A stretch of 30,053 bases of DNA from Physcia stellaris (lineage: Eukaryota > Ascomycota > Lecanoromycetes > Caliciales > Physciaceae): assembly GCA_018902385.1 (NCBI GenBank), contig JABSSW010000100.1, positions 1 through 30,053 on the forward strand. The letters run 5' to 3'. Below the pieces are notes generated by a model that searched no databases, was not told the DNA's origin, and worked only from the letters and a program-made list of their open reading frames with translations. This document shows, piece by piece, positions 1 through 30,053 of this stretch (its first letter is position 1; the number at the start of each line of letters is the position of its first letter). A program made the translations under genes and the position numbers.

Positions 1-760
1 TAAATTTTGCAATTTTTATCGACGTTTTTATCAAAACATTTTCGAAATTCGTCAAATTTTTAATTCGAATGATCAAAAAAATTGATTTCGAATAAATCGA
101 TTTGATCGATGAAACGTTCGAAATTTTGAAAAAACAAATGATCGAAATTTCAATTTTTCGATATTACGATCGCAATCGTAAAACGATTTTGAAAATCGAT
201 TTTTCGAATTGATATTAAAGTTTTTTTTCAATACGACGACGACGAAATTTTTCATTCGATAATTTTTTTTAACAAAAAAATGATTTTTGTCGAATGCAAT
301 TACGAAATATATAACAAAAATTTTTTAATCATTATTCGATGTTTAAAATATTGAAAATTCGAATTCGAAAATATCGACGAATTCGTCGAAATTTATATCG
401 ATCACAAAATTTTGAAAATTTTTATAACAAACAAAAAATTCATTTTTCGTCAAATACGTTGAATCGAAATTTTGATTGATTACAACATCAAAATTCAATA
501 TTAATTCGACGTCAAAAACGTTAAAATTGATGTTTTGATTCGAATGTTTGAATTTCGTTCAACGAAAAACGACGAGAAATTTTTTTATATAAAAAACAAT
601 TTTTTTTTTCGATTACAATTATGTTCAATAAACGCGATGAATGATTTGTACGAACACGTCATGCAAATCAATCGCGAAAACGAAAATTGTATTAATTATC
701 GTCAAATTTTGATCGATAATTAAATTATCAACGAAAAAATAAATTTGCGAAATTGTTCGA
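1..760 (+). pseudogene. RT-connection / RNase H remnant of chromovirus pol
   Basis: One frame can be followed with TGA or TAA at positions where Trp is expected. It begins in the RT-RNase H connection (NFYRRFIKTFSKFVKF-like), reaches the RNase H signature IYIDHKILKIF at about 391-425, where IDH at 397-405 corresponds to the family's TDH, and ends in a tether KNVKIDVLIRMFEFR at about 505-555. The tether matches the Ty3 consensus around RPGxxNVxADALTRM after loss of Gly and Pro codons. RNase H would degrade the RNA strand during reverse transcription. The same order occurs on the minus strand at 14030-14800. It is broken by stops and is not functional. Confidence 0.8.
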
Positions 761-779
761 ATCGAAACGAAATTTTATT

Positions 780-1716
780 TAAAAACGAAAATTTATGAAT
801 GTCAAATCGATTAAATTTCATGATTGAAATAATTCGTGACGTTCACGATTAATTTTTTTGTGTTTATTCGAACATGAATCGTATTGAAAAATTCATTAAA
901 CGTTATTATTATTGATTTAATATGAAATTATTTATTAAACGTTATATTCGAAATTGTCACAAATATCAACGATCGAAATTTTCACACGATAATCGTCACG
1001 AATTGTTAATTTCATTGTCGATTTTTAATTAACGATAAATTGATATATCGATGAATTTCATAATTGAATTATTTGATTTCAAAAACAACAATATCATTTG
1101 TATTATTATCGATCGTTTAATCAAAAAACGTTATTACGTTTTTTGCGTGATCGATGACGATAATTTAACAATGCAAATTTGTGTCAAAATATTAATACAT
1201 TACGTATTTCGTATTCATGAATTATTTTTTTTCATCATTTCAAATCGAAATGATCAATTTGTAAATCGCGTTTGAAAAATTTTTTGTAAACGATTAAAAA
1301 TCAAATGTAAATTATTCATCGTTTTTCAATCAAAAATCGATAATCAAATCGAACGAACGAATCAAAATATCGAAATTCGATTGCGTTTGTATTGCAATTA
1401 TTGTCAAAACGATTGAATTGATTGAATAAATATTATGAAATTCGTTGACAATAACGATGTTTTAACGATTATCGAATTCATTTTTTTTTTCATTAATAAA
1501 AATTATCATTTTCGAATGATTTTTGAATCGAATTTAAATAATTACGAAATCATTAAAAAACGTTTGTTAATCAAACAAAACGAATTTATTGTCGAAAAAA
1601 TGAATCGTATTATCGAATACGTCAAAATCAATGTTGTCGACGCGAAACAAAAAATGATTGTTCGAATCAACAAATTTCGCTTGTTTATAAATTTTGAAAT
1701 AAAAAATTATTTTTGA
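780..1716 (+). pseudogene. Ty3/gypsy integrase remnant
   Basis: The N-terminal zinc-binding region is visible as IKRYIRNCHKYQRSKFS near 935-990; the second Cys of the expected C-x2-C is Tyr here. The catalytic core starts at about 1051 with MNFIIELFDFKNNN, corresponding to MDFITGLPxSxxxN, followed by IIIDRLIKKRYYV, ISNRNDQFV and IDNQIERTNQNIEIRLR. Both catalytic Asp positions (MDF and SDR) read as Asn, while the Glu of the QxERTNQ block remains. A C-terminal stretch at 1435-1716 (NKNYHFRM, MNRIIEYV, RINKFRL) matches the usual post-core region. Two TGA codons near 1414-1424 stand where Trp-x-x-Trp is expected. It would have inserted the cDNA into the genome; it is now inactive. Confidence 0.88.
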
Positions 1717-1929
1717 TTAAATCGTCGTTATATAAAAATGATTCGTTCATCAAACAAATTCGATGACAAAAAATTAAATTCATACAAAATAATCAAAAAA
1801 AAAATTTCGTTTATGAATTGAAATTGTTCGACGACATGCACATTCATTCAATTTTTCATTTTTGATTGTTGAAAAAAATTTTAAAATTCGTTGAAAAAAC
1901 AACATAACGATTTTTCAAAATCAATTATT

Positions 1930-2145
1930 GCAAATGAAATGTTTGAATGAAAATTCGATAATATATTAAAATTTCGATATCATTATCATCGATTACAATA
2001 TCGTTGCAATTGATTCGAATGAAAATTTCACGATCGAACATAATATTACGTCGACGACGACGAATTTCAAAATGTTCAAAACATCGTGAATGTTTTTCAC
2101 GAAATTAATTCAAAAACAACAAAATTTGTTTTGCGAAATGATTAA
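1930..2145 (+). pseudogene. Chromodomain remnant at integrase C-terminus
   Basis: Downstream of the integrase, one frame reads through TGA stops as a chromodomain: FRYHYHRLQYRCN, then an acidic and aromatic stretch HDRT-x-YYVDDDEFQN, then IVNVFHEIN. This fits the chromodomain pattern YxVKWxGxxxxxxTWExxENLxxAxxxxxxF when TGA is taken as former Trp. A stop at 2143-2145 follows LRND. The minus-strand copy at 12650-12920 has the same structure. In chromoviruses this domain is thought to steer integration toward particular chromatin. Identification rests on residue pattern and position. Confidence 0.72.
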
Positions 2146-2158
2146 ATCGTGAATTTTA

Positions 2159-2356
2159 TTGTTTATAATCGATCAAAAAATTGTCATCGAATTCGTTACA
2201 ATTTATTTTCAAATTGACGTCAATAATTTTTTCATTGTCATTCGTTTCGTTGTCATTTTGCGTTATTTACAATCAAAATTTACATCGCATAAAAAATTGA
2301 ATCGTGTCAAAAACATTTTCAAAAATTGTCGTCAAATTTTATTGAACAATGAATAA
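2159..2356 (+). repeat. Conserved post-chromodomain block
   Basis: This stretch follows the chromodomain and is nearly identical to 12421-12618 on the minus strand, with one differing residue in 65 when translated. A core encoding SKFTSHKKLNRVKNIFKNC recurs at about 28260-28340 and 29530-29610. Whether it is coding or a 3' untranslated cis element is unclear, because the opposite strand is also open in some copies. No known domain is recognised. Confidence 0.6.
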
Positions 2357-2429
2357 TAATGTAAAATGTCATGCAATGAAATGAATAAACGCAAATTGTC
2401 AAAAAAATTTTAACATTTACGAATTAATT

Positions 2430-2900
2430 AACAAGATTTTCAATTGTTTATTAATGACACGCGAAATTATTTGTAAAATTTGTTTAAAATATTTGCTTTT
2501 CAAAAAATTTAATACATGCATATTTCGCTGAATGCAATGTACGAATCAAACGTCGTATATGCGATAACATCAACGCGTTAATCGTGATGATAAAAATTTT
2601 ATCGATTTGTTCAAATTGTTCGTTTCGTAATATCAATTTGATGTTGCAAAAATTCTCAAAATCGTTAACGCGTTCAATTGTTTGTTTATTAACGTTCGTG
2701 AAAATTATTTTTGACGAATTGTATGAATTGATTATTTTTCACGACATTCATTACATTCACATTTTGTCGCATGCAATGTACACATCAATTTTCACATACG
2801 CGAAAATATCAAAATTTTAAACATTGTTACGACGATTTTATTAACATGATCAAATTGTTCATTTCATCGTAAATCGATTTGATGTTTTCACGATTTTGAC
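2430..2900 (+). repeat. Subterminal tandem repeats, copy 1
   Basis: There are two diverged units of about 230 bp, each holding the reverse complement of a shared order of motifs: TAGTAAGC-like start, TGATCAATTCATAC-like block, GTGTACATTGCATTC, CGCATAT, and TCGTGAAACGAGCAATTTG. The same tandem pair lies at about 11890-12360 in the outer element and at 17514-17945 in the nested element. Tandem repeats just inside the 3' LTR occur in several LTR retroelements; no function is shown here. Confidence 0.65.
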
Positions 2901-3057
2901 AAATCGATTTCGCGAACGAAATCGATTTCACAACATTTCGAATTTATTTGTTCATTTTATCAATTATTTAATTTAACGTCATTCAACAACGCATCTAAAT
3001 CGCGCAAAACGTTCATTATTAAAAAACAAAAAAATTCAATTGATCGCTTCGAAACGA

Positions 3058-3081
3058 AATTGAAAAAAAAACGAAAAATAA
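3058..3081 (+). promoter_or_regulatory. Polypurine tract, copy 1
   Basis: A run made only of A and G apart from one C and a T near the end lies immediately before the LTR start at 3082. It corresponds to the purine-rich tract on the minus strand next to the other 3' LTRs (11702-11722 and 16181-16200). In LTR elements this tract primes plus-strand DNA synthesis. Its position fixes the direction of copy 1 as left to right. Confidence 0.65.
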
Positions 3082-3295
3082 TGTGACGAACGTACATTGA
3101 ATTCAACATTTGACAAAATTAACATCGAATTAACATCGTTATTTTATCACATCGAATGTTAAAATCGAAATTCGTTTTGACGCATTCAAAAATCAAATTT
3201 TTACATATGTTTTTGCAAATTTCATGTATTTGCTTTTCATTTCGATATTTTCGTGTAATTATGTAATAATATCATATTTTGCATAACATTTCACA
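3082..3295 (+). repeat. 3' LTR of chromovirus copy 1
   Basis: This starts TGTGACGAACG and ends ATTTCACA, the reverse orientation of the LTRs at 11476, 15985, 22092 and 25197. The shared order is recognisable: the CAACATTTGA block, TTATCACATCGAATG (the GATAAGATAA site after mutation), ACATATG, CATGTATTTGC and ATTTCGATATTTTCGTG. Its ends form the same 5-bp inverted repeat TGTGA/TCACA as the others. Length is 214 bp, between the 195-bp nested type and the 228-bp outer type. Confidence 0.85.
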
Positions 3296-5339
3296 AATGT
3301 TAAATAAACGCAAAAAAAAAAATCAATTTGAATATTTTATTGCATGAATAAATTCATCGTCATACGAAAATTCGTGAAAAAATCAAATCAATTTGATTTG
3401 AAAACATTTCGAAAATACGAAAAACGCAATTGTCACATTCGAAAATGCGCGCGAATTACGCAAATTTGAAAAAATTGCGAAACGTCGAAAAACAAACAAA
3501 TTCAAAACGAAATCGAACGAGAAATTTTCAACAAAAAAACAAACACGTCAATTTTTAAAATTGAAAAAACGTGAACGATTCAAAAAACAAAAATAACAAT
3601 AATTGCGACGCAAAAACACAAACAATAAAATGATATTGTGAATTATTTTTGATTACATGCGCAATTTGCATACATTTCGATGTTATAAAAATGTATTGAA
3701 ATTCGTAAATTTCAATAAACAAATCACAAAACAACGCATCACAACAAAAACAACAAAAATTAACATTTCAACGAAAACAAACACAAAAACAAACAAAATC
3801 ATGCGATCATTAAATTCAAAAAAACATCGCAATGTAAATCAACGCGTCGATAAATTCATCAATCAAAATTCAAATCACAACAATCAAATCGATTTCGATT
3901 ACGTCATGTTAATTGTCGTCGCGTTTAATTGAAACGTTGTTTATTATATATTACGCGATTTTGTTACGCGAAAACAAACGCAAAAATAAACGCGACAACA
4001 AACGAATTTGTTTGCGACGCAAACGAAACGAAATCGAAAACAAACGCAAACGAATCGAAAACGAAAAAAATCGAAAAAAAAAACAACGCGAAACGAATCA
4101 AAATCAAAAAACGAATCAAAATCAAAAAGCGAAACAAAAAAAATTCGAGTTTTTTGACGAATTAACGCGAAAACAGACGAAAAAACAACAACGACAAGCA
4201 AAAAATCGTTTTTTTCAACGAGTTTTAATGTAATTATCAACGCAATCTTGCGAGAAGAAATTTTAATAAAAAACAACGAATTTTTGCGATTGATTTTTGT
4301 ATCGTATTAATCATGTTACGCATTAAAAATTGTATGTTATTATTTTTTCAATATTTCAAAATCAATTTTAACATTTTTTTGTTGTTATTTTTGACAACGA
4401 AAATGTGAACATTGTTTTGCAATTTCATTGAAATCATGTTTTTTTCACAATAATGAAAATTTTTATTGCAAAATTCGCATTTGTTGCGTTTGTTCGAATA
4501 AAAAAAAACGCAAACATGTTTCGAATCGAAACGAAATTTTCGAACGCAACGTTGACATTACAAATAAATTAATTTTGTTAAACATTAATATTGATTTGAA
4601 ACAATTGTGCGTACACGTTTATTGAATTTGATTACAATGCGATCGCGAACATCGCGATCAAAATACATTTTTGTCGTATTGAATGCGTTCAACGATTCAA
4701 ACGAAAAAAATTTATCAATTTAACACGCGTCAACAACGTCATCGCTATTTATAATACATTTATAACAAAAACAACAAATTGCGTGTTTTTGCGAAATGTA
4801 ACAAACAACGAAAAAAAAATGAAATTATGATTTATCGCATCGTTAACACACGTATTGTATTGTCGATATTCGAAAATCAATTTCGTCGTCATTGAAACGT
4901 CATTGCGACAACATTATCATTTGTAAAAACGATGTAATAATTGTACAAACAACGATATATCATGTTGACATCATTGTTGCAATAATTATTGTTATCGCAA
5001 TAACGAAAAAAATCAAATGAAATATTTATTATGTTGTAAAATAAAAATGTTAAAAAAAGAAAATTCAAAAAATGAATTCGAAATTTGAAATAAACAATTT
5101 TCAACACATGACGCGATTCATTTCGATTCGATTTCACAACACGAACGTAATATTTGAAATTGCATTACATTGTTATTGTTATTTCTATTTATTGAATTAC
5201 AATGTTTCAAAATTACATATTGAAAACACAATATTGTATACAAAACAACGTTGTTGCGATACATTCATGATATGTTATAAAAACATTGATAATTGACGCG
5301 AAAAATCGATCATTCAGAAAAAACAATTATAATAAGACG
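3296..5339. other. Degraded AT-rich tract, unassigned
   Basis: I recognise no domain here. It includes a lysine, arginine and asparagine-rich open stretch on + at about 3657-4233, where frames on both strands stay open because of A-rich CAAACGAAAACG-like low complexity, and a cysteine-containing stretch (FYCKIRICCVCSNKKK) near 4455-4505 that reads onward through two TGA codons. These may be remnants of gag or another mobile element; the composition is the same mutated type as its neighbours. There is no LTR boundary on the left beyond 3295. Confidence 0.4.
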
Positions 5340-5537
5340 AAATCGATCAAACGAACGTTAAAACGTTGCGAGTCTAATTGTCGTATTTCGTGCTTATATA
5401 TTCGAATTTTTACGAATTTTTTTTTGTTTTTTTAGCAATTAGTTTTACTATGTGTCTAGCATTTATTATAGCAATTTATATTATTATTCGCACATTTTAA
5501 TCACGCAATGTTTACATTTTTACACATGTTCGTAACA
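5340..5537 (-). repeat. LTR-like end, GTAACA family
   Basis: The right edge ends CATGTTCGTAACA at 5537, followed by TTATTTTTTATCTTTTC and the TTTCGTTTCGAAACGA palindrome. The LTR at 8618-8794 has the same ending and the same adjoining motifs, so this is probably the 3' LTR of a minus-strand element lying to the right. The start is not resolved. A patch at about 5370-5470 is unusually rich in AG and CT (TCTAGC, TTAGCAATTAG), that is, little mutated compared with its surroundings. Confidence 0.5.
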
Positions 5538-5990
5538 TTATTTTTTATCTTTTCAAATTTCGTTTCGAAACGAATAAATCATTTCTTTTATCGATTGAAA
5601 TTGCGAAAAAATTCATTGATTGTAATTCAAATATCAATTTGATCATGACAAAAACAAAAAAATTCAAACAAATGCGATAAACGTGAAAAAATAAATGCGA
5701 AAACAAAAAAATATGCGAAAAAAAAAAATATATGCGACGACGAAAATGAAAATCTTGTTGAAAATTTTGATTGAGAATTTTGTTGAATTGATGCGAAAAA
5801 TATTTGCAAATTAGTATGATAAAACGATCGATTTCTCAAAACAAACAGAAACAGAAACAAAAACAGCAAAACGATATCGATTTCGCGAACGTACGTTGTT
5901 TCAAACTTTTCGAATTTGAATTTTTCGAATTTTTATTAATCGACGCGTTCTGATTAATTGCAAATTTTGAAACAAAACAAAATGTTGACG
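5538..5990 (-). pseudogene. Zinc-finger ORF C-terminal module, copy a
   Basis: This is the most diverged of four related modules (also 8795-9230, 16181-16620 and 17950-18400). Shared landmarks in + order are the palindrome TCGTTTCGAAACGA, a stretch encoding on minus SFYHTNLQIFFASIQQNSQ-like sequence, GATTTCGCGAACGTACGTTG, TTTTCGAATTTGAATTTTTCG, and TTAATCGACG followed by TGATTAATTGCA. In the other copies these encode SEKS, NSKxFQQHT and VNQKTSINQ. The function of this region is unknown; the zinc fingers themselves lie further upstream on minus in the better copies and are not seen here. Confidence 0.55.
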
Positions 5991-6429
5991 CATTGAAAAC
6001 GAACAAACGATTACGAAAAAAACGAAAAGTTGAATTGATTGCATAACAAATTCACATTGATTTTTGTTTTTCAATTTTTCATGTCATTTGTTTTTTTATC
6101 GCTGTATGTAATAAATTTATTTCTTGATATTGATTAAATAAATATGTAAAAATTGAACGCATGCATATTGAAATCGTTTTAGTCGATTCATTAAAAATTT
6201 CATTGAAACAAATTCATTAATCGTTGTAACGAGTTCATTTTGAATGTTTTGACGCAAACAAATTGTCGAAACTAACGAAACGAAACGATAAATCGAAATT
6301 TTTTGATTTGATGTTTTGAATGTTGATTTGTTGATTTGATGTGAAATTTGATAAATATGTAATTTTTTTTTTTCTTTATCAAACGATGTTTCAACGTTTC
6401 AAAAAAAATGAATATTGTAAAAATCATTT
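5991..6429. other. No recognisable feature
   Basis: This is AT-rich sequence with scattered AG and CT dinucleotides, so slightly less mutated than 1-3300. I see no domain, LTR boundary or long repeat here. Confidence 0.5.
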
Positions 6430-6665
6430 CGATATCGACGAACAAAAAAAAATGAATTATTGACTAAATGTCCAAAATTCGAAAAAAAAAAAATCGACAA
6501 TTGATTGATTGATTGATTCGAAAAACAAAAAAATCGATTATTGATTGAATGTCGACTAGTTTCGACGAACAAAGAAATCGATTATTGATTGTCGTTGTAA
6601 CAAACTCATTGATTGATCGATTTTCAAAACAAGAAAATCAACAATTGATTGTCATTATCGTTGAT
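6430..6665 (+). repeat. Degenerate short tandem repeat
   Basis: About five or six units of roughly 40-60 bp share a core like GAACAAAAAAATCGATTATTGATTG (given here only as a pattern), at about 6438, 6484, 6524, 6568 and 6630. Between them lies a TTGATTGATTGATTGATTCG run. On + the units encode variations of EQRNRLLIV and KQENQQLIV, so they may be repeats inside a former low-complexity protein. Confidence 0.55.
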
Positions 6666-7084
6666 TCACGATCATTTTCGCAAATTCACGATGCGTTAAA
6701 TGAAAATGAAATTCAATCATCGTTTTCAAAGAAAAATTTTTTTCATTAACGCAAATTCACGATCATTTTCGCTGATTCACGTTGTTGACGATTTTCTTTT
6801 GACTCGCGTATTTTTACGAATGATTTGAAAATTTCAGATCGACGATTTTTTTAATTATTCGCGTATTTCTACGAACATATTTGACGATCATATTTAACTA
6901 TTCGCGTATTTCGACGAACAATCTTTGCAAAAAATTTGATCGAATGTCAATTAATTTCGCAAAATTCAAAGCGAGAAATCGCGTGTTAAAAACGAAAAAT
7001 GAATCATTGTCATTGCTGTTTGAAAAATTGATGTTGAAAATGTGCGATCGTCACGAATTGATCGATTTTTTTTTTATTCGTTAA
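6549..7084 (+). pseudogene. Possible gag-like coiled-coil remnant
   Basis: The + strand encodes first the short repeats above and then, at 6881-7084, a stretch (KKFDRMSINFAKFKARNRVLKTKNESLSLLFEKL is its character: heptad-spaced Leu, Ile and Phe with charged residues) that resembles a coiled coil. The outer element's gag region has a similar coiled-coil stretch at 23910-24134 on minus. Between the two parts, an ATTCGCGTATTTNTACGAAC phrase occurs three times (6802, 6856, 6896). No capsid or zinc knuckle is seen, so assignment to gag is a guess by analogy. Confidence 0.3.
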
Positions 7085-7117
7085 TCGTTTCGTAACGAAT
7101 GTGAAATTTACATCGTT

Positions 7118-7326
7118 CGTCACGATAAAAATCAAATATAATGTAAAACGCGTATTTAAAAAACAAATAACATAACGAAAATATTTGATTTAAAAAACAA
7201 ATATGTACAAAAAATCGAATGTCAAAAATAAATTGTGAACGTTAAATTTTAAATCGCGTTAATTTTCATATGAACTTTCGTTGATAAAATAAAATTTCAA
7301 TCGAAATTTCAAACATGTTCGTAACA
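7118..7326. repeat. LTR-like end, related to LTR at 28980
   Basis: The right end CAAACATGTTCGTAACA and about 70 bp around ACAAATATGTAC and AAATCGCGTTAATTTT match the LTR at 28980-29376. The left edge near 7118 (GTCACGATAAA versus GTCACGAATAAA) is tentative. The sequence to the right switches directly into the middle of an RT domain, so this end appears to be inserted in that pol. A target-site duplication was not found. Confidence 0.45.
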
Positions 7327-8617
7327 CGTGCAACGTCAAATTAATCGATTGTTTCGCGAATATCGTCATTTTGTAAAAATTTATGTTAACGATATAATGA
7401 TATTTTTTCGTACAAAAATCGAACACGAAATTCATTTGCGCAAAATATTTTCAATATTAAACAAAAACAACATATCGATCAAATTCATCAAAATCTTTTT
7501 GAATTATTCATCGTTTCAATTTCATTTTTTCAACAAAAGATTGACTCATTCGATCTAATCACGTTCGAAAAAACTCAAAACAATTGTCAAATTTCGATTT
7601 TCTCGTATTTTTCGACAATTCGAAACGTATTTTGATTTAATTGATTAATTACGTGATTACATCGTTCATTATGTTGACATTTTCAAATCATTACAAAACA
7701 AAAAGACAAAAATTTTGCGTAACGAATTTATTGCAAAAAACGTTAAACGCGTTTATTTTTCGAAAACACGCGTGCAACATTTTACGACAAAAAAATTGAT
7801 TTCGAAAATTCGATATTTTGCAAATCGTTTTAACAAAATTTTTCTATTTGATACATTCGAATTTCAAACATCAATTATTTATTGAGTTTTTGTTAACAAA
7901 AAATTCGATTTCGATGTCATGTTATATTATGTCGAAAAATCTTTTTCGAATCAAACAAATATTTTTTTCGTCATGTTATAAAGTCGAAATTTTTTTAATC
8001 GATTATTCATCGATGTCGAAACAAAATATTGATTCATTGAATTGAAAATAACAAACATTGTGTGAATGTTCAAAAAAACGAAACATATTGTCGAAATTTC
8101 GTCGAACAAAACAATCGTTTATATTGATTATGAATTTGCATTCGACATTGTTAATCAAATAACGATGACAACAATTTCGATCGACAAATTCAATTTACGT
8201 TTTGTTCGCGTTTCAAATTACATTCAACGTTTCAATTTCGATATTCGACATAAATCAAACAAACAACACATTGTTTTTGACGTTTTGTCACGTTTAATCA
8301 ATGACAATATCAACGCGTCAATGATCAAAAATTTTGATGAAAATGAATTTGATGTTTTGTTCACAATTTCATTAATCGAAATGAAAAAAGATTTTCGCAA
8401 TCGAATATTCGATGATTACAAAATTGATTTGAATTGACAAAAAATCAATCAAATATTGAACGTTGACGACGAAAACGTCGCAAAATTGTTTTTTTATAAA
8501 AAAAAATGATTTGATTTTTCGTTCAAATGATTTTATCATTGATAATTATGTTTACGAATTTCGTCGATTTTGCATTTTTCATTTCGTTGTATCAAACATT
8601 TTACGATTAATTCATGA
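7327..8617 (+). pseudogene. Ty3/gypsy pol fragment (RT, RNase H, start of integrase)
   Basis: The fragment opens inside RT at QRQINRLFREYRHFVKIYVNDIMIF; the catalytic box is YVND at 7382-7393, one Asp changed to Asn. Next come KIFSILNKNNISIK and a connection with FETYFDLID, matching fungal elements that read YLGLTGWLRxY. RNase H follows, with IVYIDYEFAFDI at about 8111-8150 and the closing tether RHKSNKQHIVFDVLSRL at 8246-8296. The start of integrase (FCIFHFVVSNILRLIHD) is at about 8565-8617. Frame changes and TGA or TAA codons interrupt it. The sequence differs clearly from the chromovirus pol at 14823-15737, so this is a second lineage. It is truncated at both ends by LTR boundaries. Confidence 0.85.
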
Positions 8618-8794
8618 TGTTACAATCGATCGCATGATAATCGATATTCATTAAACGAAATTTCTAAAATTAAAAAGAAAATATATACAGATGAAAATCG
8701 AAATTGATGTGTAAAATTTGCGAAAATCAAAATCTAATCACGTGTTTTTTTTCAATTTTACAACAAACAATGTTTTCGAAACACGTTCGTAACA
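8618..8794 (-). repeat. LTR of GTAACA family, left copy
   Basis: It starts TGTTACAATCG and ends GTTCGTAACA, giving a 6-bp inverted terminal repeat TGTTAC/GTAACA. It aligns along its length with 25437-25610, sharing ATATTCATTAAACGAAA, TACAGATGAAA, ATCACGTGTTTTTTT (AGTCACGTG there) and CAATGTTTTCGAAACACG. The motif to its right (T-rich tract then TTTCGTCTCGAAACGA) is the arrangement found beside 3' LTRs of minus-strand elements. It cuts the pol fragment just inside the integrase zinc-binding region. Confidence 0.8.
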
Positions 8795-11250: not shown

Positions 11251-11470
11251 ACGATCAATGAAATTGTACGATTTGTTGAATAAAATCGTATTGATTAACA
11301 GTTGATTTTGCAATTGATAAATCAAATATTTGAATTTTGATTGATTGATTCGATAACATTGTTGTTGATGTGTTATTCAATTCGTTTTTTTTTTTTTACG
11401 ATCATTGATGATTTGTTAAAAAAAAACGCATACAAATACATGTACACGTTTTTCATTGAATAAAAATGAA

Positions 11471-11475
11471 CTTTT
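11471..11475. repeat. Target-site duplication CTTTT, left copy
   Basis: CTTTT directly precedes the LTR start at 11476 and is repeated exactly at 25425-25429, directly after the LTR end at 25424. A 5-bp duplication is normal for Ty3/gypsy integration, and the match shows these distant LTRs bound a single insertion. Confidence 0.88.
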
Positions 11476-20157: not shown

Positions 20158-20247
20158 TTTTGAACTCTTGCAAATGAGACATTCGCGAAATCGACTCGTA
20201 AGATTTCAATTCACTCACTTAATGATGTTGATCTCATGATTGTTTGT

Positions 20248-20788: not shown

Positions 20789-20789
20789 A

Positions 20790-21131
20790 TCAAAGTAGAA
20801 TCTGCTGAGCTCTCGGAAGTTCCGCACGTTGACTTGAGTGCAAGAATTGAGAAAGATGAGCTATTGTCTTGTTTGGAGGAAATGCATTCGCCAGAGCTAT
20901 ATCGAATTCATACAAGGAAGTAAATTCCGGTTGATCGTTAAACCATTCGAGAGCAGGCCCTTCGAGACATGTTGATAACCATTCGAGCATATCTGACTCC
21001 GAATATTGGTTTCGACATTGTTGAAGATGTTGCAGGAAGTCCACGGCTTCATTGAACAGTCCAGCATTCAAGCCTGCAAGAATGAGTCCTGGATAGAAGA
21101 TACCGATATGTTGAACCATTGAAGCCATCAT
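20790..21131 (-). pseudogene. Gag capsid-like region of nested element
   Basis: The encoded 113 residues include AGLNAGLFNEAVDFLQHLQQC, SDMLEWLSTCLEGPALEWFNDQPEF and SLYEFDIALANAFPP. The pattern LxxxLxGxAxxWFxxQP...F...FxxAFP is that of Ty3-type retrotransposon capsid, which assembles the particle shell. The frame is open upstream of the Met at 21131. Trp, Gly and Pro codons persist here, in contrast to the outer element. Confidence 0.7.
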
Positions 21132-21911
21132 GGAAACTGGAGGGGGACAGTCGATTGGTAAGGGAATAAATACGTTTTCGAACTGGTTCTCGAGCGAACG
21201 AGATGATGAGGATACTGGGTATTGAAAAAGATTCTAGGAATCGATATGAGTTTTCTGGATTGAAGTGATATTGACTTTCTGACTGGAATCGGTCTACCAC
21301 CGAAATAGGAGAGTGACACTGAATTGGTAGGCTGATAGGTATGTTTTCGAGCTGGCTCTCAAGGTAATAGGATAGCTTCGATGCCGGGGGTTCGACAAAG
21401 TGTTTCGGAGCTTCCTATTTGAGTATTGAAGCTATCGAGCAGCAAGGAGAGGATGGTCGATTTGCTAGTAAAATATGTAGGATTTTGAAAGGTTCTCGAA
21501 GAAGGTAGATGATCCGAATTCGATCGAGGGTTTCTGATGCCGTAGTCTTCGATGAGAGGTTCTGAAGGACTGATATTGGACTCACCGCAGAGGCTGGAGA
21601 GGGAGGTCGTTTTACTAAGGATGTAGATAGGATTTTCGAAAGGTTCTCGGGGGAGGAGGGTGTTTCGAGTATTGGTGGTCAAGGACCTGGTTCCTGACTC
21701 AACGGCGGAGTTACTGGTCCGGCCACTGCTCAGGTATTTCTGGTATGGTGTTTTCTTGACGTAAGGAGGTTTGTTGACTTAATGGCCTAGACCTGCTTTC
21801 TGATACTGATAAATTTGTTTGACGGCTACCTTTGCAACCCGTCCTTCGGTGAGTCCTGCTTGATACACCGGCTTCCGCGATAGGCACTTCCTTGAAAGTC
21901 CTGTACAGCAC
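21132..21911 (-). pseudogene. Gag N-terminal, Pro/Ser-rich region of nested element
   Basis: Several minus frames (21911-21711, 21682-21359, 21319-21049) encode Ser, Pro, Thr and Glu-rich sequence with repeated phrases such as PREPFENPIYILSK and SRTFQNPTYFTSKST, which look like internal repeats of about 40 residues. No single frame spans the region. It is upstream of the capsid-like stretch, so it is probably the disordered gag N-terminus. Confidence 0.45.
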
Positions 21912-22026
21912 TAGAGCGAGCTATGCTCTCTACCTCTCTTTGCTGACCCGCTGGATAGAGTCGAGCCTCGTTGTCCAGCCTGGCTTTGGGGGGGGTGACG
22001 TCTTAGGTCTTCGCATTGGGTTTGAG

Positions 22027-22091
22027 GTCTTGTTTATTGAATAGGCTGTCGTACCTCGAGCAGCCTGAAGGGATGGGTGACTTCGATATAA
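22027..22091 (-). repeat. Leader segment shared with outer element
   Basis: TTGTTTATTGAATA...CTGTCGTA...TCGAGCA lies just inside the 5' LTR and matches 25129-25196, just inside the outer 5' LTR. The shared leader shows that the two elements are related beyond their LTRs. Confidence 0.75.
22080..22089 (-). promoter_or_regulatory. Putative self-primed PBS, nested element
   Basis: ACTTCGATAT on + is the exact reverse complement of ATATCGAAGT at 22140-22149 inside the 5' LTR. It lies two bases from the LTR. No tRNA-type site beginning TGG is seen next to the LTR. In Tf1/sushi-group elements the 5' end of the RNA folds back to prime at such a site. Confidence 0.6.
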
Positions 22092-22286
22092 TGTGAGGTG
22101 CCATGCATTGGTATGGTGCTAATACATAACTACACGAGGATATCGAAGTGGGGAGCAAATACATGGAGGCCTGACAGGGCATATGTAGAAGGTTTGGTCA
22201 TAGGCGGGGTTCGGGCCTGCCACTCGATGTGATAAGATAAGGGTGTTAGTCTTGCCAGATGTTGGATCCGGTGCACGCTCGTCACA
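22092..22286 (-). repeat. 5' LTR of nested element
   Basis: It starts TGTGAGGTGCC and ends GCTCGTCACA. This is the least mutated LTR in the window and the best guide to the family's original sequence. It contains two adjacent GATA motifs (GATAAGATAA, 22231-22240) and the ATATCGAAGT site that pairs with the PBS. If transcription begins at that site on minus, as in Tf1, U3 would be 22286-22150 and R-U5 22149-22092. Confidence 0.94.
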
Positions 22287-22661
22287 GTCGTTTCTTTTTA
22301 AAGAATTTGACGAAAAATATTTTTTATCAATTTTTTCAATGATATATCGAGAATTGAAATTTAACACGATCGTCGAAAAAAATTCATTTTTCTCATCGTA
22401 ATTTTCGATTGTAAAACGAAATAAATGAATTTTAATCGTTTTCGACGATGAACGTTTTTGCAAAATCGTATATTTCTGCGAATTTATCGATATTGAAAAT
22501 TTTTCGAACGATGTGAAAAATGATAAATAAATATTCGTTGATGAATGTCGATGTTCAAAAAACGTTTTCAAATTTTTAAACGTTTCGAAATGAATACAAC
22601 GATTTGATTTAAAAATAATTTTATCGATTTGCATGTTTAGCATCACGTCGTGCGTGTTCAT
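22287..22661 (-). pseudogene. Protease C-terminus and linker, upstream part of split frame
   Basis: The frame starts with NTHDVMLNMQIDKIIF; just upstream, in the same frame and across a TGA at 22662-22664, lies SFLILNKF, which matches the conserved LILGxPW of Ty3 proteases with Trp lost. The remainder is a linker toward RT. At 22287 the reading enters the nested LTR, so the apparent 180-residue frame ending at 22119 is chimeric. The original frame resumes at 15979. Confidence 0.65.
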
Positions 22662-22664
22662 TCA

Positions 22665-23050
22665 AAATTTATTCAAAATCAAAAATGAACGTTTATTTTC
22701 GTAATGAACATGAAAATAAATAATTCAAAATGATTTTGCATTGTGAATGTGAAATAAATAACATGAATAATAAATTTAATCAAACGATCGTCAAATTCGT
22801 TGACGTACTTGAATCAAAAAAAAATTACAAAATTTATTTGAAATTTTTCACAAATCAATTGCGTAATTTTTTCATCAATGAAAGCAAATTCAATGACATT
22901 TGTATTCATTAATGTTTGCACGTTGTGTTCGTATTTATCGAAAATTAATGTACATTGAATGATTAATGAATTGTTTGTGAATTTATGAACGTGTTAAATG
23001 CTTTGAACATTGTTGAAATCGACAGCATTTTTTTCGCGATTTTGAAAAAA
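22665..23050 (-). pseudogene. Protease region remnant, outer element
   Basis: Minus frames carry YVNEFDDRLIKF, HFWIIYFHVHYENKRS (with TGA as Trp) and then the LILNKF block. An alternative frame reads FDSSTSTN, resembling an active site DSGAS that has lost Gly, but frame and position are not certain. Aspartic protease would process Gag-Pol. An open + frame at 22730-22912 is antisense. Confidence 0.45.
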
Positions 23051-23051
23051 T

Positions 23052-24134
23052 TTAAACGTTTTTCGATTCATGTTCGAATGAGAATTCGTCGCTAATTTCG
23101 TTGATTTCATCGTTCGTGATAGTTTGATTTAATTGAGTCGAATTTTTAAACAGAAAATCGATTATGTTGTGAATTTTCAAAACGTTTTTTTTTTTTACGT
23201 AATATTTTTGAATATAAAAACAATCGATTTTGATTTTGAACAATTTTTCGATCAATGATTCAACGTTTCGCATTTGTAACAATTTGTTAACGTTTTATTT
23301 TTTTGTTTAAAAACTTTTAAGCGCGATCAATTTTGAAATCGAAAATTTTTTGAAAATTGACGAAATGAAAACGCGAATAAAAAATTTGACGTTAATTTTT
23401 CTATTAATTGATTGATCAATTCGAATGAATATTTCAAATTTGACGATTTGATAATTTTTTAAATTGTGAAATTTTTGATTTATTTTTTCAATTAATTTTT
23501 TCAAGTTTTCGATCGTGTTAAATTTGTCGTTGTTAACAATGATTCGTTGAAAAAAAATGAATTTTTCGCGAAATTCATCTGTCAAATTCTGTTGCGAATA
23601 ATGAAACAATTGATTGAACAATAACAAAAATTTCGAAAAAAATTTCGAAAAACGTTGATTGATACGCATGATAAAAGTTTTGAATTTATTTCGTATGTTT
23701 CGTTTCTTGTTCTTTTTTGCGTAAATTAGAAATAAAACATAAAAAAATCATTTGAAAAGTTTTGAAAAAAATCATATCGAATTACGTTTAGCGAAAACAT
23801 GTTTTCGAATTTTGTTTTCAATTCAATGACAATGAAACGTCGTTGTTTTGATTTATTCGTCGACGAAATGATCGACGTTGACAACGAATTTATTTTTGAC
23901 GAATTGCTTTCAAATTTCATAAAAGAAATTTGAGATATTTTCATTGAAAATTTGAAAGAATTCGACATTTTGACATTCTTTTTTTTTTTTTATCGATTGA
24001 GCAATCTGAAATTGATTGACGATGTCAATTTTTAATGAATTTATTTCGTTTTGTAATTTTATATTACGATTGATTAATTTAACGTTGTCGATTTTGAATT
24101 TAATGTCATTTTGAAATGTAAACGTTGATTGCAA
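23052..24134 (-). pseudogene. Gag of outer chromovirus with CCHC zinc knuckle
   Basis: From the 5' side: a coiled-coil-like stretch at 24134-23910 (NDIKFKIDNVKLINRNIKLQ), a Ser-rich part, a capsid-like stretch at 23669-23307 (FFSKFLLLFNQLFHYSQQNLTDEFREKF, with the pattern of the Ty3 capsid C-terminal half), and a zinc knuckle at 23240-23281 reading CYKCETLNHxSKNC, where x is TGA: C-x2-C-x4-H-x4-C. An acidic tail (NDEINEISDEFSFEHES) follows. The knuckle binds element RNA during packaging. Frames change between parts and stops are present. Confidence 0.75.
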
Positions 24135-25184
24135 AATTCAAACGAAAAATGTTTATTTCGTCGTGTAAATTTTGTTTTTTTCGATTGAACTTTTCAATTT
24201 GAATATTGAGTTTGTTTATGATTTTATTTTCGCGTTTGAAGTATGCTAACGATCTTTCGATTGATTCGTTTGTTCTTTTCAATTTTTTCGAAATCTTTGA
24301 GCAACGAATTATAGTTTTTTACATGAAAATTTCAATCGAAAATGATTTGAATTTCAACGTCACGATCAATTTTGAATTGATTTAGCATTTGAATTATTGT
24401 GACGAAATCTTTGCGAATTCACATTTGAAATTGTTTGATGCAAATGTTCACGACGAATTTAACATCGTTCGAATTGTAATTTGTATTCTCCGAAAAAACG
24501 TAATTTAAAAAAATGTTTTTTATCAATCTGAATTAATCAACGATAGTTTGATCGTTCTTCGAAAAAACGATTAATTGTTGAATTTGATTGAAAATCTTGC
24601 GCTTAAATTTAGAAAAATGATCACAAAAGAAATGTTGATAAAAAAAATTTGACTTGCAAAAAAAAAAAAATCGAAATCGAAAAACGTTTGCAATAAAAAA
24701 TAAAAAAAATCATTATCGATTGCGAAAAGCAACGAATGATATGTAACGTGTTTTTTAAAAATGTAATAAATAAAATGAATAATCGATGTTTGATTTTTGA
24801 TGTTCGTTTTGATGAAAATTTTTGATGAAAACGAACGTCGTTTACACAATTTGTCGTTTTCGTTTATTGATCGAAAATGATGTCAATTCGTCGTTTTGAT
24901 TTGTAACGTACGATCTCGTCGTCGTTTTGCTAAAATATCGAAATGATTTTTTCGTGAAAGTTCACATTCGAAATCGCTGTTTTCTAGAAAATGATTTGCG
25001 TGAAATAGAATTTCGATGTTTTCATTCGAATCGTTTGAGTTTTTGATTTCACGTGAACAAAACTTTTTCGTTCTCGCTGCACGTTTAGAATTTGATTGTT
25101 GACGTTTTAGATTTTCGCGTTTGATTGAAATTTTGTTTATTGAATAAACTGTCGTATTTCGAGCAACTTGAAAAAATTAAAATG
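24135..25184 (-). other. Leader and gag N-terminal region, outer element
   Basis: This lies between the PBS and recognisable gag. Minus frames (for example 24849-24571) are open but match nothing I recognise. The part at about 24900-25184 keeps more AG, CT and GC (TCTAGAAAATG, CTCGCTGCACG) than the rest of the element. Confidence 0.5.
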
Positions 25185-25194
25185 ACTTAGAAAT
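25185..25194 (-). promoter_or_regulatory. Putative self-primed PBS, outer element
   Basis: ACTTAGAAAT on + pairs with ATTTCTAAAT at 25245-25254 inside the 5' LTR at nine of ten positions. The one mismatch fits a CpT mutation on the LTR copy. Compared with the nested element, both partners have changed (TATCG to TTTCT and CGATA to AGAAA), so complementarity is kept. Confidence 0.6.
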
Positions 25195-25196
25195 AA

Positions 25197-25424
25197 TGTG
25201 AGATGTCATGCATTGATATGATACTAATATATAATTATACGAGAATTTCTAAATGAGAAGCAAATACATGAAAGTCTGTAAAAACATATGTAGAAAATTA
25301 GATCGTTAAAATGTGTCAAAACGAATTTCGATTTTAACATTCGATGTGATAAGATAAGAATGTTAGTTCTAATGACTGATCAGATGTTGATTTCAGATGT
25401 TGAATTCGATGCACGTTCGTCACA
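25197..25424 (-). repeat. 5' LTR of outer chromovirus
   Basis: It starts TGTGAGATGTC and ends GTTCGTCACA. It keeps many AG and CT dinucleotides that its partner at 11476-11701 has lost. It contains GATAAGATAA and an 8-bp inverted repeat TAACATTC (25335-25342) / GAATGTTA (25358-25365) around the GATA motifs. An internal duplication of CAGATGTTG distinguishes it from the nested LTRs. Confidence 0.92.
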
Positions 25425-25429
25425 CTTTT
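25425..25429. repeat. Target-site duplication CTTTT, right copy
   Basis: Exact repeat of 11471-11475, directly after the outer 5' LTR. Confidence 0.88.
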
Positions 25430-25436
25430 AAAATAA

Positions 25437-25610
25437 TGTTACAATCGTGCGTGATAGTCGGTATTCATTAAACGAAAATTCTAAAACTAGAAGGAAATAT
25501 GTACAGATGAAAGTCGAAAGTTGATATGTAAAATCTGCGAAAGTCAAGTTCTAGTCACGTGTTTTTTTCAGTTTTGCGACAAACAATGTTTTCGAAACAC
25601 GTTCGTAACA
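25437..25610 (-). repeat. LTR of GTAACA family, right copy
   Basis: It starts TGTTACAATCG and ends GTTCGTAACA and aligns with 8618-8794. It is much less mutated (CTAGAAGG, CTAGTCACG). It begins only seven bases after the outer element's CTTTT duplication. Joining across the outer element would give a leader beginning TTATTTTAAAAAG on minus, similar in start to the other two leaders (TTATATCG and TTATTTCT). Flanking 5-mers of the two copies (CATGA on the left, ACACG on the right) do not match. Confidence 0.8.
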
Positions 25611-26126
25611 ACACGTACGTCGATGAATTTTTGTAATTCATAATAATTACGTTAAAACTTTTTTGATTTTTTGATTGACGACAGTAAATTTGTGTCGATC
25701 ATTTAAATGAATTTGTCATTGATAAAAAAATTAAACAATCAATGATTGATGTGTAATCGCAATTTCGTATTGCGATTATAATTTTTGTTTGCAATGATAA
25801 CGAATATGCGTCAAATTGTGTTATGATATTGAAATTTTTAATGTTTATAATTACACGATTTTTTTCTCGTCGTCAACGTTTTTTCAAACACAAAAACAAA
25901 AATAAAAAACGACGTTGATTGATTAATTCAGAACATTCGATTAATTCAATGCAAATCGTCGAAAATTTTGTCAATCAATTTTTGTTTTTTGCATTCAAAA
26001 ATACATTTTTGTTTTTGCATTCAAAAAATACATTTTTGTTTTTTTTGATACACGTTTTTTTTAATCATTTTTCAATGATATTTTTATTCAATTCTTTTTC
26101 GACATTTCGACAAAGTCGATATTTTG
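25611..26126. other. AT-rich tract with short tandem repeat
   Basis: No gene recognised. At about 25978-26045 a phrase TTTTTGTTTTTGCATTCAAAAAA recurs about three times. On minus it continues the frame of the neighbouring pol-like remnant through a TGA but shows no motif. Confidence 0.4.
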
Positions 26127-27000
26127 TCAAAACGTCGAATTTTTTTTAACAATTTTGACGAATGAATTTAATTCGTCGAAATTGTAAACTGTAACGTCGT
26201 TAAACAAAACGATTTCGATCAACGAAATAAAAACGTTTGTAAAAGATTTTTCGAAATCGCTATCATTGATTTTGATTGTAAAAATTTTTCGCAATTCAGC
26301 AATTGACATCGAAATTTGTGACAAAATGACAAACGATATTGATGTTTGTGACGAAATAATTAACGACGATGAAATAATTGACGTAATCGAAAAATTATTA
26401 TCGATTGCAACAACGACGACGTAAATCACGACGCAAACGAAAATGAATTTTTTTGAATCAATCATTTTGTGAATAAATTTTGATTTTTTGACGACGAAAT
26501 ATTTAACATTTTCGTCGTCGATATCGATATAAAAATCATTGAAAAAATCAATTTCAAATATTTTGTTTAGTCGAAAATTTCTAAAAATCATGATTGAAAA
26601 TTTTTTATCGTTGCGTACAACAATAAACTTAATAAACGCGTCAACGAAATGAACATACAAAATGAAATTGAAATTGTCATTCGATTCAAACAGAATTTTT
26701 TTGTAATTGACAATTCAACATAATAAACGACGATGATCATTTCGATATGTGACGAAATGATTGTAATTTTTTGAAATGAACAAATCGTTCAATCGTCAAT
26801 TTGAAAAAGCGTATTTTCAATGATATAATTATGTCGATATTATTTATCATTGCGTGTTTTTTAATCATGTCGATAACGAAATTTTCGAATTCAATAATGT
26901 CATTGTTTAAAACATGTTGATTTTCAAATTGTCAACGAAATAAAATTTCGCGTTCAACAACAACGTGATTTTTTGATCATTTTTTGTGTCAAACATGTAA
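26127..27000 (-). pseudogene. Probable Ty3-type pre-RT remnant
   Basis: A minus frame of 177 residues at 26660-26127 ends with VTVYNFDELNSFVKIVKKNSTF. That resembles the segment DVTVYGxxExxxxxxxVVEEYPxLW that precedes RT in one group of fungal Ty3 elements, after loss of Gly, Pro and Trp. Upstream, a frame reads through TGA as HVxHKKxSKNHVVVEREILFR and onward. RT itself is not seen. Assignment rests on one short motif. Confidence 0.42.
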
Positions 27001-28246
27001 ATATTACATATGACATATTTTCAATTTTTATGTCGATTAATATTTAAATTACGAATTTGAAATGACGAAATCATAATACGAATGAAAATATTGAATGTTT
27101 GTGTTTTAAAAAAATTTCGATTCATAAATGAAACGTTAATATCGATGTTCAAACACACGTTTTTTAACACGACGATTACGACAAATAAAATTTTGATTTT
27201 GACGTAATTTCAATCACGAAATTCGTATTCGATGTCAATATTTGTTGACGAATCGACGTTAAAACGAATAATGATTAATTCAAACGAAATAAATGAATTC
27301 GTAAATTCAGCAAACGTGATCGTATTCGATTGATCGAATTCGTTAATTTTTTTGTAACATCGATTGTAAATGAATTGACATTTTTGACAAAATAAATTTC
27401 GACGTCGTTAAAAAATTTCGATTTTTTTGAAAAATCAAATTACAATCAACACGAAAATTGTAAAATTCGTACTAGAAATAATATAATTTAATGAATTATT
27501 GACATCAGAAATGTATAATTTGAAATGTAATATATTGATTTATTAATCGTTACAAAACAAATTACGTTTTGTAATTGTTTTTTATTTACATTTTATTTGT
27601 TCAATCGTACGAATTCGATCGATTTCGACTAAAAATATGAATTTGTTGAATTTATCGTTGATCGAATTGTAAAATGATTAAAATTGATTTTTTTCGAAAT
27701 TATTCGAATTTCGATAATCGAATTGTTTAACGAAATACGAATCGCATTTTCGAAAATTTTGAATTTTTATCTTTTACATACGTTTTTTTTTAACATCGAA
27801 TTTTTTTGAAATCAACATGTTAACAGAAATTTTGATGTATTTTGTTTGTTTTGTTTTTGCATCGATTTGAAAAATCATTATGATCGTGATTTTCGCATTT
27901 CGAAATATTTTGTTTCGAATTCGATAATCAATTTGCGTTAAAAATTTGAAAGAACATTTTTTTGAATGATTCAAAAAAAGTATAATTTAATGAATTAACT
28001 GTTTGCTATTTTCATGATCGAATGTTTGATTTCGTACAATTCACAATTTTCGATATAATGATTGACAATTGATTTGTTGACAGAAAATTCTGAATTCGAA
28101 CATTTTTTTATTTTTTCATTTTTTTATTTCGAATATCAACATCGATATTATGAAAAAATGTGTAAACGCGATAGACGTTTATTAATCGCGATCGCATTGA
28201 TATTCAAATTTCGAAATTTTTTTTTTATTTCATTTCACATTTTTAT
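27001..28246. other. AT-rich tract, nothing recognised
   Basis: Heavily mutated sequence of the same composition. Short open frames on both strands (for example 27774-27974 minus and 28062-28340 plus) are Phe, Ile, Lys and Asn-rich and show no domain. Confidence 0.5.
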
Positions 28247-28516
28247 TCAACGATTTATCGTTCGATTAAATCGAACAGCAATTTTTGAAAATATTTTAAC
28301 ACAATTCAACTTTTCATGCGTCGTAAATTTTAAACAATAAATAATACACAAAATTTTTGAAAACGAAAATATGTTAACATGTAATAAATATTTCAATTCA
28401 TTTTTTCGTGATTTTCGATGATTTGTTTTTTTATTGATATTAAATTTTTTGAATTTTCGTTGTGAAATTGTCGCAAAGTTTTTCGAAAATGTTTGACAAA
28501 CGATGCAAATTTTCAA
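28247..28516 (-). repeat. Third copy of the post-chromodomain block
   Basis: A minus frame ends YCLKFTTHEKLNCVKIFSKIAVRF, matching SKFTSHEKLNRVKNIFKNCRQ at 12421-12618. Here the block lies in a frame that upstream has CIVCQTFSKNF. No chromodomain adjoins it, so it is an isolated or rearranged fragment. Confidence 0.5.
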
Positions 28517-28979
28517 ATCGCGTTTTCATAATTTTTTCATTTTATTAAATAATAAAAATCGAATTCGTTGTAAAATTTGTGTTTGAAATTTCATTTGTTT
28601 TGAAAATTTTGTTGTTTTTAATGATTTCGATTTCATAGAATTTTTCGTGATTTTCATTTTCATGTTTTCGTTTAATTCGATATTTTCAACTTGATACGAA
28701 AATTCAGAAAATTGTGACGTTTGCGCGTTTTTTTTTTCAAAATGAATTTTTTCAAAAAAAAACATGAAAAACGTTATGAATACGTCAACGTTTGAATAAA
28801 TTTAAACGATAAATTTGATTTTTTATAATTTTTAAAATTTTGAATAATTTGAAAAATTTTCATTTTAGTTTTTTGTTTCGTTTAATTTTGATGTTTTTTT
28901 CGTTTAAATTCACGTAATTTTCGACGTTATATGGCGTTGATTTTGTGTGTTCGTTTTTGTACATCGTTTGTTGTTGTTA
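28517..28979. other. AT-rich tract, nothing recognised
   Basis: It contains an open minus frame at 28526-28765 rich in Lys, Ser and Phe with no motif I can name. The right edge is set by the LTR start at 28980. Confidence 0.45.
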
Positions 28980-29376
28980 TGTCACGAATAAATTGTTTTC
29001 AATATTCGAAATAATTGATTAAATGTTCAACGTGTTTTTGCGAATTTGAATTTAATTTTTTTGTTTTATGTTTTTTCGAAAAACATGCGAAATGAATATT
29101 CAAACATAATTTCGAAGAAAAAAATGTTTGTTATTATGAATCGTGTTTGTATAATTATATTGATTGATTAATTAAACGAAAACAATAAATTTGCAAAAAC
29201 AAATAAATACAAAATGTTGAAATTGCAAACAATGTGCGACGTCAAATTTCAAATCACGTTAATTTCGACGTAAAATCAAAACATAATTCGTTGTTCGATC
29301 ATATCATATTAATTATTTATTTGTGAAACATTTATTAAACATTTATTTGATTTATTTGTCAAACATGTTCGTAACA
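28980..29376 (-). repeat. LTR, 397 bp, beside chromovirus copy 3
   Basis: It starts TGTCACGAA and ends TTCGTAACA, a 9-bp inverted terminal repeat with one mismatch. Its right third matches 7118-7326. To its right lie the conserved block and a minus-strand chromodomain, so it is the 3' LTR of a minus-strand chromovirus that continues beyond the window. Confidence 0.68.
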
Positions 29377-30053
29377 TTTTGTTTATCGCGAGCGTCGTTT
29401 CGACGATTCGTCGTTGATTCGAAATGAAAACGTTGTTAATTGTTTTGAACGAATTCAAAATTCGAAATTTTCATGATTATCATTTTTTGATTTTTTCAAT
29501 ATGTTGCATTAATTCACAATTCAATAAAATCGAACAACAATTTATGAAAATGTTTTTGACACGATTCAATGTTTCATGCGACGTAAATTTTGATTATAAA
29601 CAACGTCGAAACGATGATAATGATGTTGAAATTGAAAAAAAAAATTGAAACGAACGAATAAAATCAAATGAATTCAAATTCATTCGAAATTTTCAAATTT
29701 TAATCGAATGTAATTTCAATGAATGTCAAAACGACGATTTTTTTTCGAAAACGACGACGATTTGCAAATGAATTTTGATCATCGATTTGAAAAACGAAAA
29801 ATGTAAATTTGAATGATTTCGAATTTGCGACGATGAAATGATTTCGATGATAATCATTTATCGCGTCGCGAACGTTATCGAACTTATCGTTATCGACGTA
29901 ATATCAAATTCGATCATGCGATCAATTTGATCAATTGACGCGATATTGAAAACAATCGTAATGATATCGAAATTTCAAAATATCGTTCATTTTTCATTTC
30001 GAAATTCTCGCTGATTATAACAAAATCGAATGATTACCCGTTGATTTGATTTT
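29377..30053 (-). mobile_element. Chromovirus copy 3, 3' end, cut by window edge
   Basis: On minus, reading from the right edge: a chromodomain region at about 29850-30053 aligns with 12690-12860 of the outer element (shared GATATCGAAATT, GATATTGAAAAC, ACGTAATATCAAA), then the conserved block at about 29530-29610. The tandem subterminal repeats of the outer element are missing, and the tail between block and LTR is only about 150 bp. It thus belongs to a related but distinct subfamily. The open + frame at 29424-29648 is antisense to it. Confidence 0.7.

Follow-up and report, generated by a model that had tools for sequence, protein, structure and literature searches.

How can a stretch of lichen DNA lose nearly every CC and GG and still keep its CpG and CpA? 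The question is raised by a contig of 30,053 bases (C100, analysed here from end to end and called the window) in the 43.97 Mb, 147-contig assembly of Physcia stellaris, a lichen-forming ascomycete (Lecanoromycetes, Caliciales, Physciaceae) whose published genome, a hybrid assembly of nanopore and Illumina data, measures 46.57 Mb with 43.32% GC and was described in a paper whose main text does not contain the term "repeat-induced" (PMC7513301). Apart from a younger long terminal repeat (LTR) element nested within it, the window (23,751 bases) holds six CC or GG in total, where about 2,700 would be expected at the density of gene regions (114.4 per kb). The explanation that we favour, with good confidence, is a defence akin to repeat-induced point mutation (RIP), carried out by an enzyme of the RID family that prefers cytosines followed by a pyrimidine (CpY) and running in P. 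stellaris now or until recently. The argument is built on the following features.

1..15984, no strand: saturated RIP-like island with retroelement remains (dinucleotide counts)
75..3186, plus strand: left arm of a large inverted repeat, in which an older element is present as two opposed copies (repeat search)
about 11638..14708, minus strand: right arm of the inverted repeat, partner of 75..3186 (repeat search)
14889..15353, minus strand: reverse-transcriptase (RVT_1) relic with one in-frame TGA (PF00078, E 4.9e-10)
15980..15984, plus strand: left target-site duplication, GTCGT
15985..22286, no strand: nested younger LTR element, partly converted (repeat search, genome matches, dinucleotide counts)
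15985..16180, plus strand: left LTR, bounded by TG...CA and more converted than its partner
22092..22286, plus strand: right LTR, little converted
22287..22291, plus strand: right target-site duplication, GTCGT
22287..30053, no strand: saturated RIP-like island, sharp border with the nested element (tile counts)

Between positions 1 and 15984, CpC/GpG has fallen to 0.1 per kb and CpT/ApG to 11, with CpG at 62 and CpA/TpG at 122. An earlier note, made from the sequence alone, had ascribed RIP-like C-to-T mutation to the whole of positions 1 to 30053; this fits the flanks, which are saturated (0.1 and 0.8 CC+GG per kb), but the nested element between 15985 and 22286 keeps 48 per kb and is only partly converted. 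For bases 1-300 our count likewise gives one AG and no CT, CC or GG, with 24 CpG in place of the "about 23" given there. The border at 22287 is abrupt, the 100-base tiles at 22201 and 22301 containing 11 and 0 CC+GG, respectively. Inside the nested element the counts per 500 bases are graded, from 2-10 in the left 2 kb to 36-59 in the last 1.3 kb or so, its least converted part, and it looks as if one part only had been exposed to conversion.

The nested element's own LTR pair (15985-16180 and 22092-22286) gives the most compact view of the change. The two differ by 31 substitutions, all transitions, and one gap column; sorted by the base 3' of the cytosine, these are 21 CpC, 9 CpT, 1 CpA and 0 CpG, a recount identical to that of the earlier note. 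At 28 of the 31 sites the T or A state lies in the left LTR. Read from right to left, 20 of 29 CpC, 7 of 19 CpT, 1 of 33 CpA and 0 of 16 CpG sites were changed, and in the opposite direction there are three changes (CpC 1/7, CpT 2/18).

The same rule emerges, with far larger numbers, from the other copies of this element. A genome search, in which 38 of 533 candidates were scored, matched it 141 times, and five other copies (L024-L028) were fetched and compared with it and with one another; the window's old inverted repeat and a further pair of elements, L033 and L034, were aligned as well. The comparisons use non-overlapping alignments of at least 150 bases (at least 300 for the 5' base). From the window's element to L024, conversion reached 217 of 292 CpC and 279 of 710 CpT sites, against 10 of 836 CpA and 10 of 678 CpG; from L024 to L025 the figures were 89/92, 412/577, 26/871 and 7/694, and the 6,454 aligned columns contained 3 transversions. 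Among the copy comparisons CpC conversion rose as high as 208/211 with CpA and CpG low, and CpA and CpG, whose sparing the earlier note had read from the LTR pair, stayed far below CpC in conversion per site in nine of the ten directed comparisons of this one family, the exception (L028 to the window's element, with CpG close to CpC) being taken up below. The 5' base had little effect, whether for CpC (ACC.97, CCC.92, GCC.95, TCC.96) or for CpT (0.77-0.85 across the four 5' bases). In five of the ten comparisons the CpC:CpT hazard ratio fell between 2.4 and 2.7, and the ratios are consistent with one agent of fixed preference, which they suit rather than prove. The copies in the assembly are converted to graded levels, and the 501 CpY transitions set against 3 transversions between L024 and L025 speak of a burst, not slow decay.

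One copy also carries a bias between strands. In L024, 52 of 87 CpC sites were converted on one strand and 165 of 205 on the other (p 4e-4), and for CpT 100 of 321 and 179 of 389 (p 6e-5), so that the strand bias along one copy known from RIP is present in both contexts; it was not seen in the control pair, L026 to the window's element.

Is this a peculiarity of one contig, or of the genome? We sampled 19 ten-kb stretches (three of them next to methyltransferase genes and one from a small contig), 14 of which had 47-53% GC and ordinary dinucleotides and five of which contained AT-rich islands. Cut into 500-base tiles together with the window (n=440), they gave 122 island, 304 gene and 14 intermediate tiles (GC 0.33-0.42), the intermediate tiles, loci L001-L004 and element copies L024-L028 being set aside from the counts. 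Dinucleotide odds in island and gene tiles, respectively, were 0.011 and 0.942 for CpC, 0.26 and 1.079 for CpT, 3.23 and 0.87 for CpG, 1.28 and 1.10 for CpA, and 0.43 and 0.70 for TpA. Per kb, CpC+GpG fell from 114.4 in genes to 0.41 in islands and CpT+ApG from 134.5 to 25.7, CpA+TpG being nearly unchanged (137.5 and 126.2); CpG, the target of the Microbotryum type, stood at 59.6 in islands and 52.9 in genes and was not attacked. The comparison with genes that the earlier note had proposed thus finds no depletion of CC or CT across the 304 gene tiles. Among 20 one-kb stretches placed at random on 16 contigs, four were islands (CC+GG of 0, 0, 2 and 0) and 16 were normal (90-133). Of five island edges inspected, four switch within about 100-200 bases; at the fifth, in L007, CC+GG reaches zero at 6001 and GC declines across some 600 bases. 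From the published GC of 43.3% and modes near 49% and 26%, we estimate the converted share at about a quarter of the genome, of which perhaps between a fifth and a quarter has been remade.

These observations agree with RIP in most traits. The change is C:G to T:A in repeats and absent from single-copy DNA, as seen directly in tiles, random stretches and copies; it comes in a rapid burst with many changes per copy (L024 to L025); and RID homologs are present in the genome (L003 and L001). The CpA preference is missing, so that the process is not of the canonical CpA type but works like RIP. The earlier statement that the pattern fits neither CpA-type RIP, nor TpCpG-type RIP, nor decay of 5-methyl-CpG holds for the window and for the sampled genome. 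It also holds that standard indices misread such DNA: the islands score 0.44 for TpA/ApT and 1.32 for the CpA index against usual cut-offs of >0.89 and <1.03 (PMC3897900), and the process is therefore missed.

Which enzyme could be responsible? A PF00145 profile search of the genome gave four matches in three genes, on contigs C6, C3 and C5, and the methyltransferases for which the earlier note had advised a search are indeed there, as two RID-like genes and one DIM-2-like gene. The latter (L002 on C3, motifs SPCQGFS and ENV) we take to be DIM-2-like from its motifs. In the RID/Masc1 subfamily EQT or EET replaces ENV, and both remaining genes belong to it by their C5-methylase motifs, EQT/EET, PF00145 and position in the tree: RIDa (L003/L004 on C5) with PPCQFFSDAHT and EQT, and RIDb (L001 on C6) with PPCQSFSPAQ and EET. 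Both seem to keep an open frame as far as an intron whose position they share. RIDb was placed in a tree whose 70 rows were drawn from 237 proteins plus L001, and there it belongs to a 15-row clade (support 100/99) whose one named member is from the lichen Heterodermia. In a 28-row alignment, the loop that follows catalytic PPCQ, or a variant of it, reads HT in 21 of the 22 other RID-like rows, the 22nd, a Lecanora helva paralog, having HV; in all six rows of the RIDb clade Q replaces this H in the catalytic loop and is followed by DFE(D/E)KQ. By its sequence, RIDb would be the first choice for an enzyme with an altered target, with RIDa also possible. Proteins P0171 and P0178 of Haloplaca and Lecanora group with neither RIDa nor RIDb but in another RID-like clade, and lichens may have several RID paralogs.

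RIP is known to require RID and/or DIM-2, to be premeiotic and to be triggered by pairing. We infer that in P. stellaris a RID protein is the mutator, either RIDa or its divergent paralog RIDb. Duplicated DNA would be recognised, probably before meiosis, and an enzyme sensitive to the 3' base would turn its cytosines to thymine, accepting a pyrimidine, refusing G and hardly taking A, with CpC presumably converted about 2.5 times faster than CpT. Repeated rounds would bring transposon copies from about 50% to about 26% GC, the end point being a sequence in which CpC is gone, CpT mostly gone, and CpG and CpA remain. We likewise infer action in the sexual cycle, triggering by the pairing of copies and the number of rounds needed; abundant apothecia are reported on P. 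stellaris (PMC7513301).

The choice of target has consequences for what the relics encode. Within a single codon, CpA conversion makes TAA or TAG from CAA, CAG and TGG, that is, stops at Gln and Trp codons; CpC conversion makes only TGA, from TGG, at Trp; CpG conversion makes TGA from CGA; and CpT conversion makes no stop. Since CpC conversion yields nothing but TGA at Trp, old elements retain long frames. Of 150 RVT_1 matches scored (from 527 candidates), 140 have in-frame stops, and these number 250 TGA, 33 TAA and 3 TAG in related copies whose events are not independent, the type predicted by CpC and not by CpA conversion; among all stop triplets of island tiles including element copies, 57% are TGA, 38% TAA and 4% TAG. 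The open reading frame (ORF) at 15087-15737, which overlaps the RVT_1 relic of the window, contains no Pro, Gly or Trp. Its protein relatives, in the best 120 of 153, all have at most 3.1% Pro and at most 0.9% Gly, with an unconverted Ty3-type element at 7.2% and 4.9%; they come from the ena, jgi, ncbi and lgn sets, carry no mark of belonging to the window, may include this same assembly and are favoured by the very search, and so do not show how common the CpY rule is. We also noticed RIP-altered reverse-transcriptase proteins (P0304-P0347, ncbi/jgi) nearly free of Pro and Gly with up to 3.5% Trp, often at positions of Arg in relatives (e.g., P0311, P0319 and P0336); this could be due to a gene caller using code 4 (TGA as Trp) or to a different mutation spectrum. 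DNA of other lichens was sought among viral contigs (40 pattern matches, no relatives) and genome contigs (178 pattern matches, four distant relatives, all from bacterial or archaeal metagenome-assembled genomes). Within the nested element itself, open frames on the minus strand at 16403-19123 carry zinc-finger-like CxxC...HxxxxH stretches, and a Pfam scan of six window ORFs, two of them in the nested element, returned no families, the frames probably being too altered.

Several observations weigh against a RIP-like defence of this kind, or at least against its simplest form. In the other five of the ten comparisons, among them the pairs with least and with most conversion, the CpC:CpT hazard ratio ranges from 1.3 to 4.5. 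In the least converted, from L028 to the window's element, CpG (10/194) nearly matches CpC (10/155), and 18 of the 2,082 columns are transversions; these changes lie near background. CpA is not fully spared, 26/871 exceeding the 7/694 of CpG between L024 and L025 (p 0.007). Tracts of adjacent sites on one strand are mixed, with z from -2.6 to 4.4 over eight directed comparisons. An 11-base period is expected from studies of RIP pairing; it appears with p 0.003 in one of seven comparisons and with 0.075 in another, five showing none and 15 periods having been tried. Ten RVT_1 matches have no stops, and all four of the loci inspected have gene-like GC and CC counts. Not all duplications were converted, either: two of those four loci, L033 (C5:1164500-1169500) and L034 (C12:58300-63300), some 17 and 58 kb away from the ends of their contigs, are copies of a Ty3-type retroelement that stayed unconverted and kept long open frames, a long duplication that escaped. 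They are 95.9% identical over 5 kb, with 141 of 204 differences at one codon position, 52 transversions and no strong context preference (CpA.025, CpC.033, CpT.035, CpG.022), and they may be new arrivals, an escape, or a sign that the process is now weak. Finally, either RID is at most a candidate for the CpY-preferring enzyme.

Could the same pattern have accumulated without any burst or pairing, a DIM-2-type enzyme methylating CpC and CpT in repeats and the 5-methylcytosine being deaminated gradually? The gene labelled DIM-2-like from its motifs is present, and in ascomycetes that have RID and Dim-2, methylation outside CG is typically on a par with that at CG or higher (PMC7862722). Nevertheless, 501 CpY changes beside 3 transversions, 26 CpA and 7 CpG in L024/L025 are hardly slow, and what ordinary decay looks like can be read from the window's inverted repeat, whose arms (85% identical over 3,338 columns) differ by 122 CpA, 126 CpG, 31 CpT, 0 CpC and 144 transversions; this is ordinary decay following saturation. 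We therefore regard gradual decay as improbable, although it leads the alternatives. A cytidine deaminase directed at repeats, of the APOBEC/AID or bacterial-toxin kind, would explain why all 31 LTR changes are C-to-T-kind transitions, and the general deaminase family PF00383 has eight matches in the genome. Members of that family are normally housekeeping enzymes, and APOBEC/AID enzymes select by the 5' base, which has little effect here; a genome search for APOBEC_N (PF08210) gave no match, and neither did the control genomes, so that absence is not established. A deaminase in place of a methyltransferase seems slightly less probable still. Given the RID-family genes and a dependence on the 3' base only, which is C5-methyltransferase-like and unlike APOBEC/AID, the agent is likely a RID-like enzyme with changed preference.

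A stranger possibility is that the mutator leaves cytosine alone and instead alters guanines preceded by a purine (GpG, ApG) where repeats are paired, much as in O6-alkylguanine, as a targeted and self-made version of signature SBS11. The context is identical to that of SBS11, C>T at CpC and CpT (PMC12556801), and a static sequence is blind to which strand's base changed first. Confinement to repeats with mostly sharp edges is unlike a diffuse chemical lesion; moreover, RID genes are present and CpC conversion reaches its extreme with CpA and CpG low. We know of no guanine-modifying repeat defence, and this third alternative, which if true would mean a genome defence whose chemistry we know from no organism, we consider very unlikely. 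Least of all do we believe in an artefact of assembly or base calling, whereby nanopore errors would arise at modified CpC and CpT of methylated repeats: the hybrid origin of the assembly (PMC7513301) permits the thought, and the graded conversion among copies within the assembly argues against it, as does the Pro and Gly depletion in the best 120 of 153 reverse-transcriptase relatives, some of them possibly from this same assembly.

A RIP-like process led by CpC and sparing CpA and CpG suggests that the target of RIP can evolve, and RIDa and RIDb would offer a natural paralog pair for mapping what sets the target base. In practice, the standard indices, and likely screens based on CpA, will miss a CpC-led process, and TGA-rich relics could pass for genes of a TGA-reading code.

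How far does this depart from known systems? Our literature search, with most subscription journals and all preprints outside its scope, recognised no repeat-directed, CpC-led RIP sparing CpA and CpG. SBS11, the mark of temozolomide and O6-methylguanine, shares the same C>T at CpC and CpT, but as drug damage in tumours and not directed at repeats (PMC12556801). In the basidiomycete Rhizoctonia solani AG8, CpC is likewise foremost in the spacing given in Table 2 (closest at 214 bp, with CpG 370, CpA 422 and CpT 491), but there C/T polymorphisms between nuclei affect genes and repeats alike, CpA and CpG are hit too, and the authors describe the bias as one toward CpG (PMC4014442). C-to-T hypermutation is also common to Microbotryum, another basidiomycete and the source of the TpCpG type, whose RIP-like mutation targets the CpG (PMC4352252) that P. 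stellaris leaves untouched. Among lichens, the repeats of Endocarpon pusillum are strongly AT-shifted as here, with classical indices of 1.47 and 0.70 (PMC3897900) against 0.44 and 1.32; Cladonia rangiformis shares AT-shifted repeats, RID, DIM-2 and sharp edges, but its islands peak at ~16% GC rather than ~26%, and the main text of that paper uses neither "dinucleotide" nor "CpA" (PMC12542154). The plant pathogens Botrytis, Sclerotinia and Magnaporthe have a CpT signature together with RID/Masc1, in which CpA accompanies CpT according to Table 2, CpC being absent from the main text (PMC4352252); in P. stellaris, by contrast, CpC is foremost and CpA spared. According to a survey of 1,239 fungi, RIP-like defences have a CpA preference in common (PMC12543289); CpT was dominant in RIP-capable control fungi (PMC7882544), and in an alignment study of N. 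crassa Tad1 CpT came ahead of CpA (PMC2621366). The order otherwise given for N. crassa is CpA>CpT>CpG>CpC, with CpC last in T. reesei as well (PMC5496416). P. stellaris thus resembles N. crassa in its C-to-T change in repeats, its AT-rich islands and its RID- and DIM-2-like genes, and differs from it in placing CpC before CpT with CpA and CpG near background; a share of CpT in RIP was already known, and the lead of CpC with CpA spared is new.

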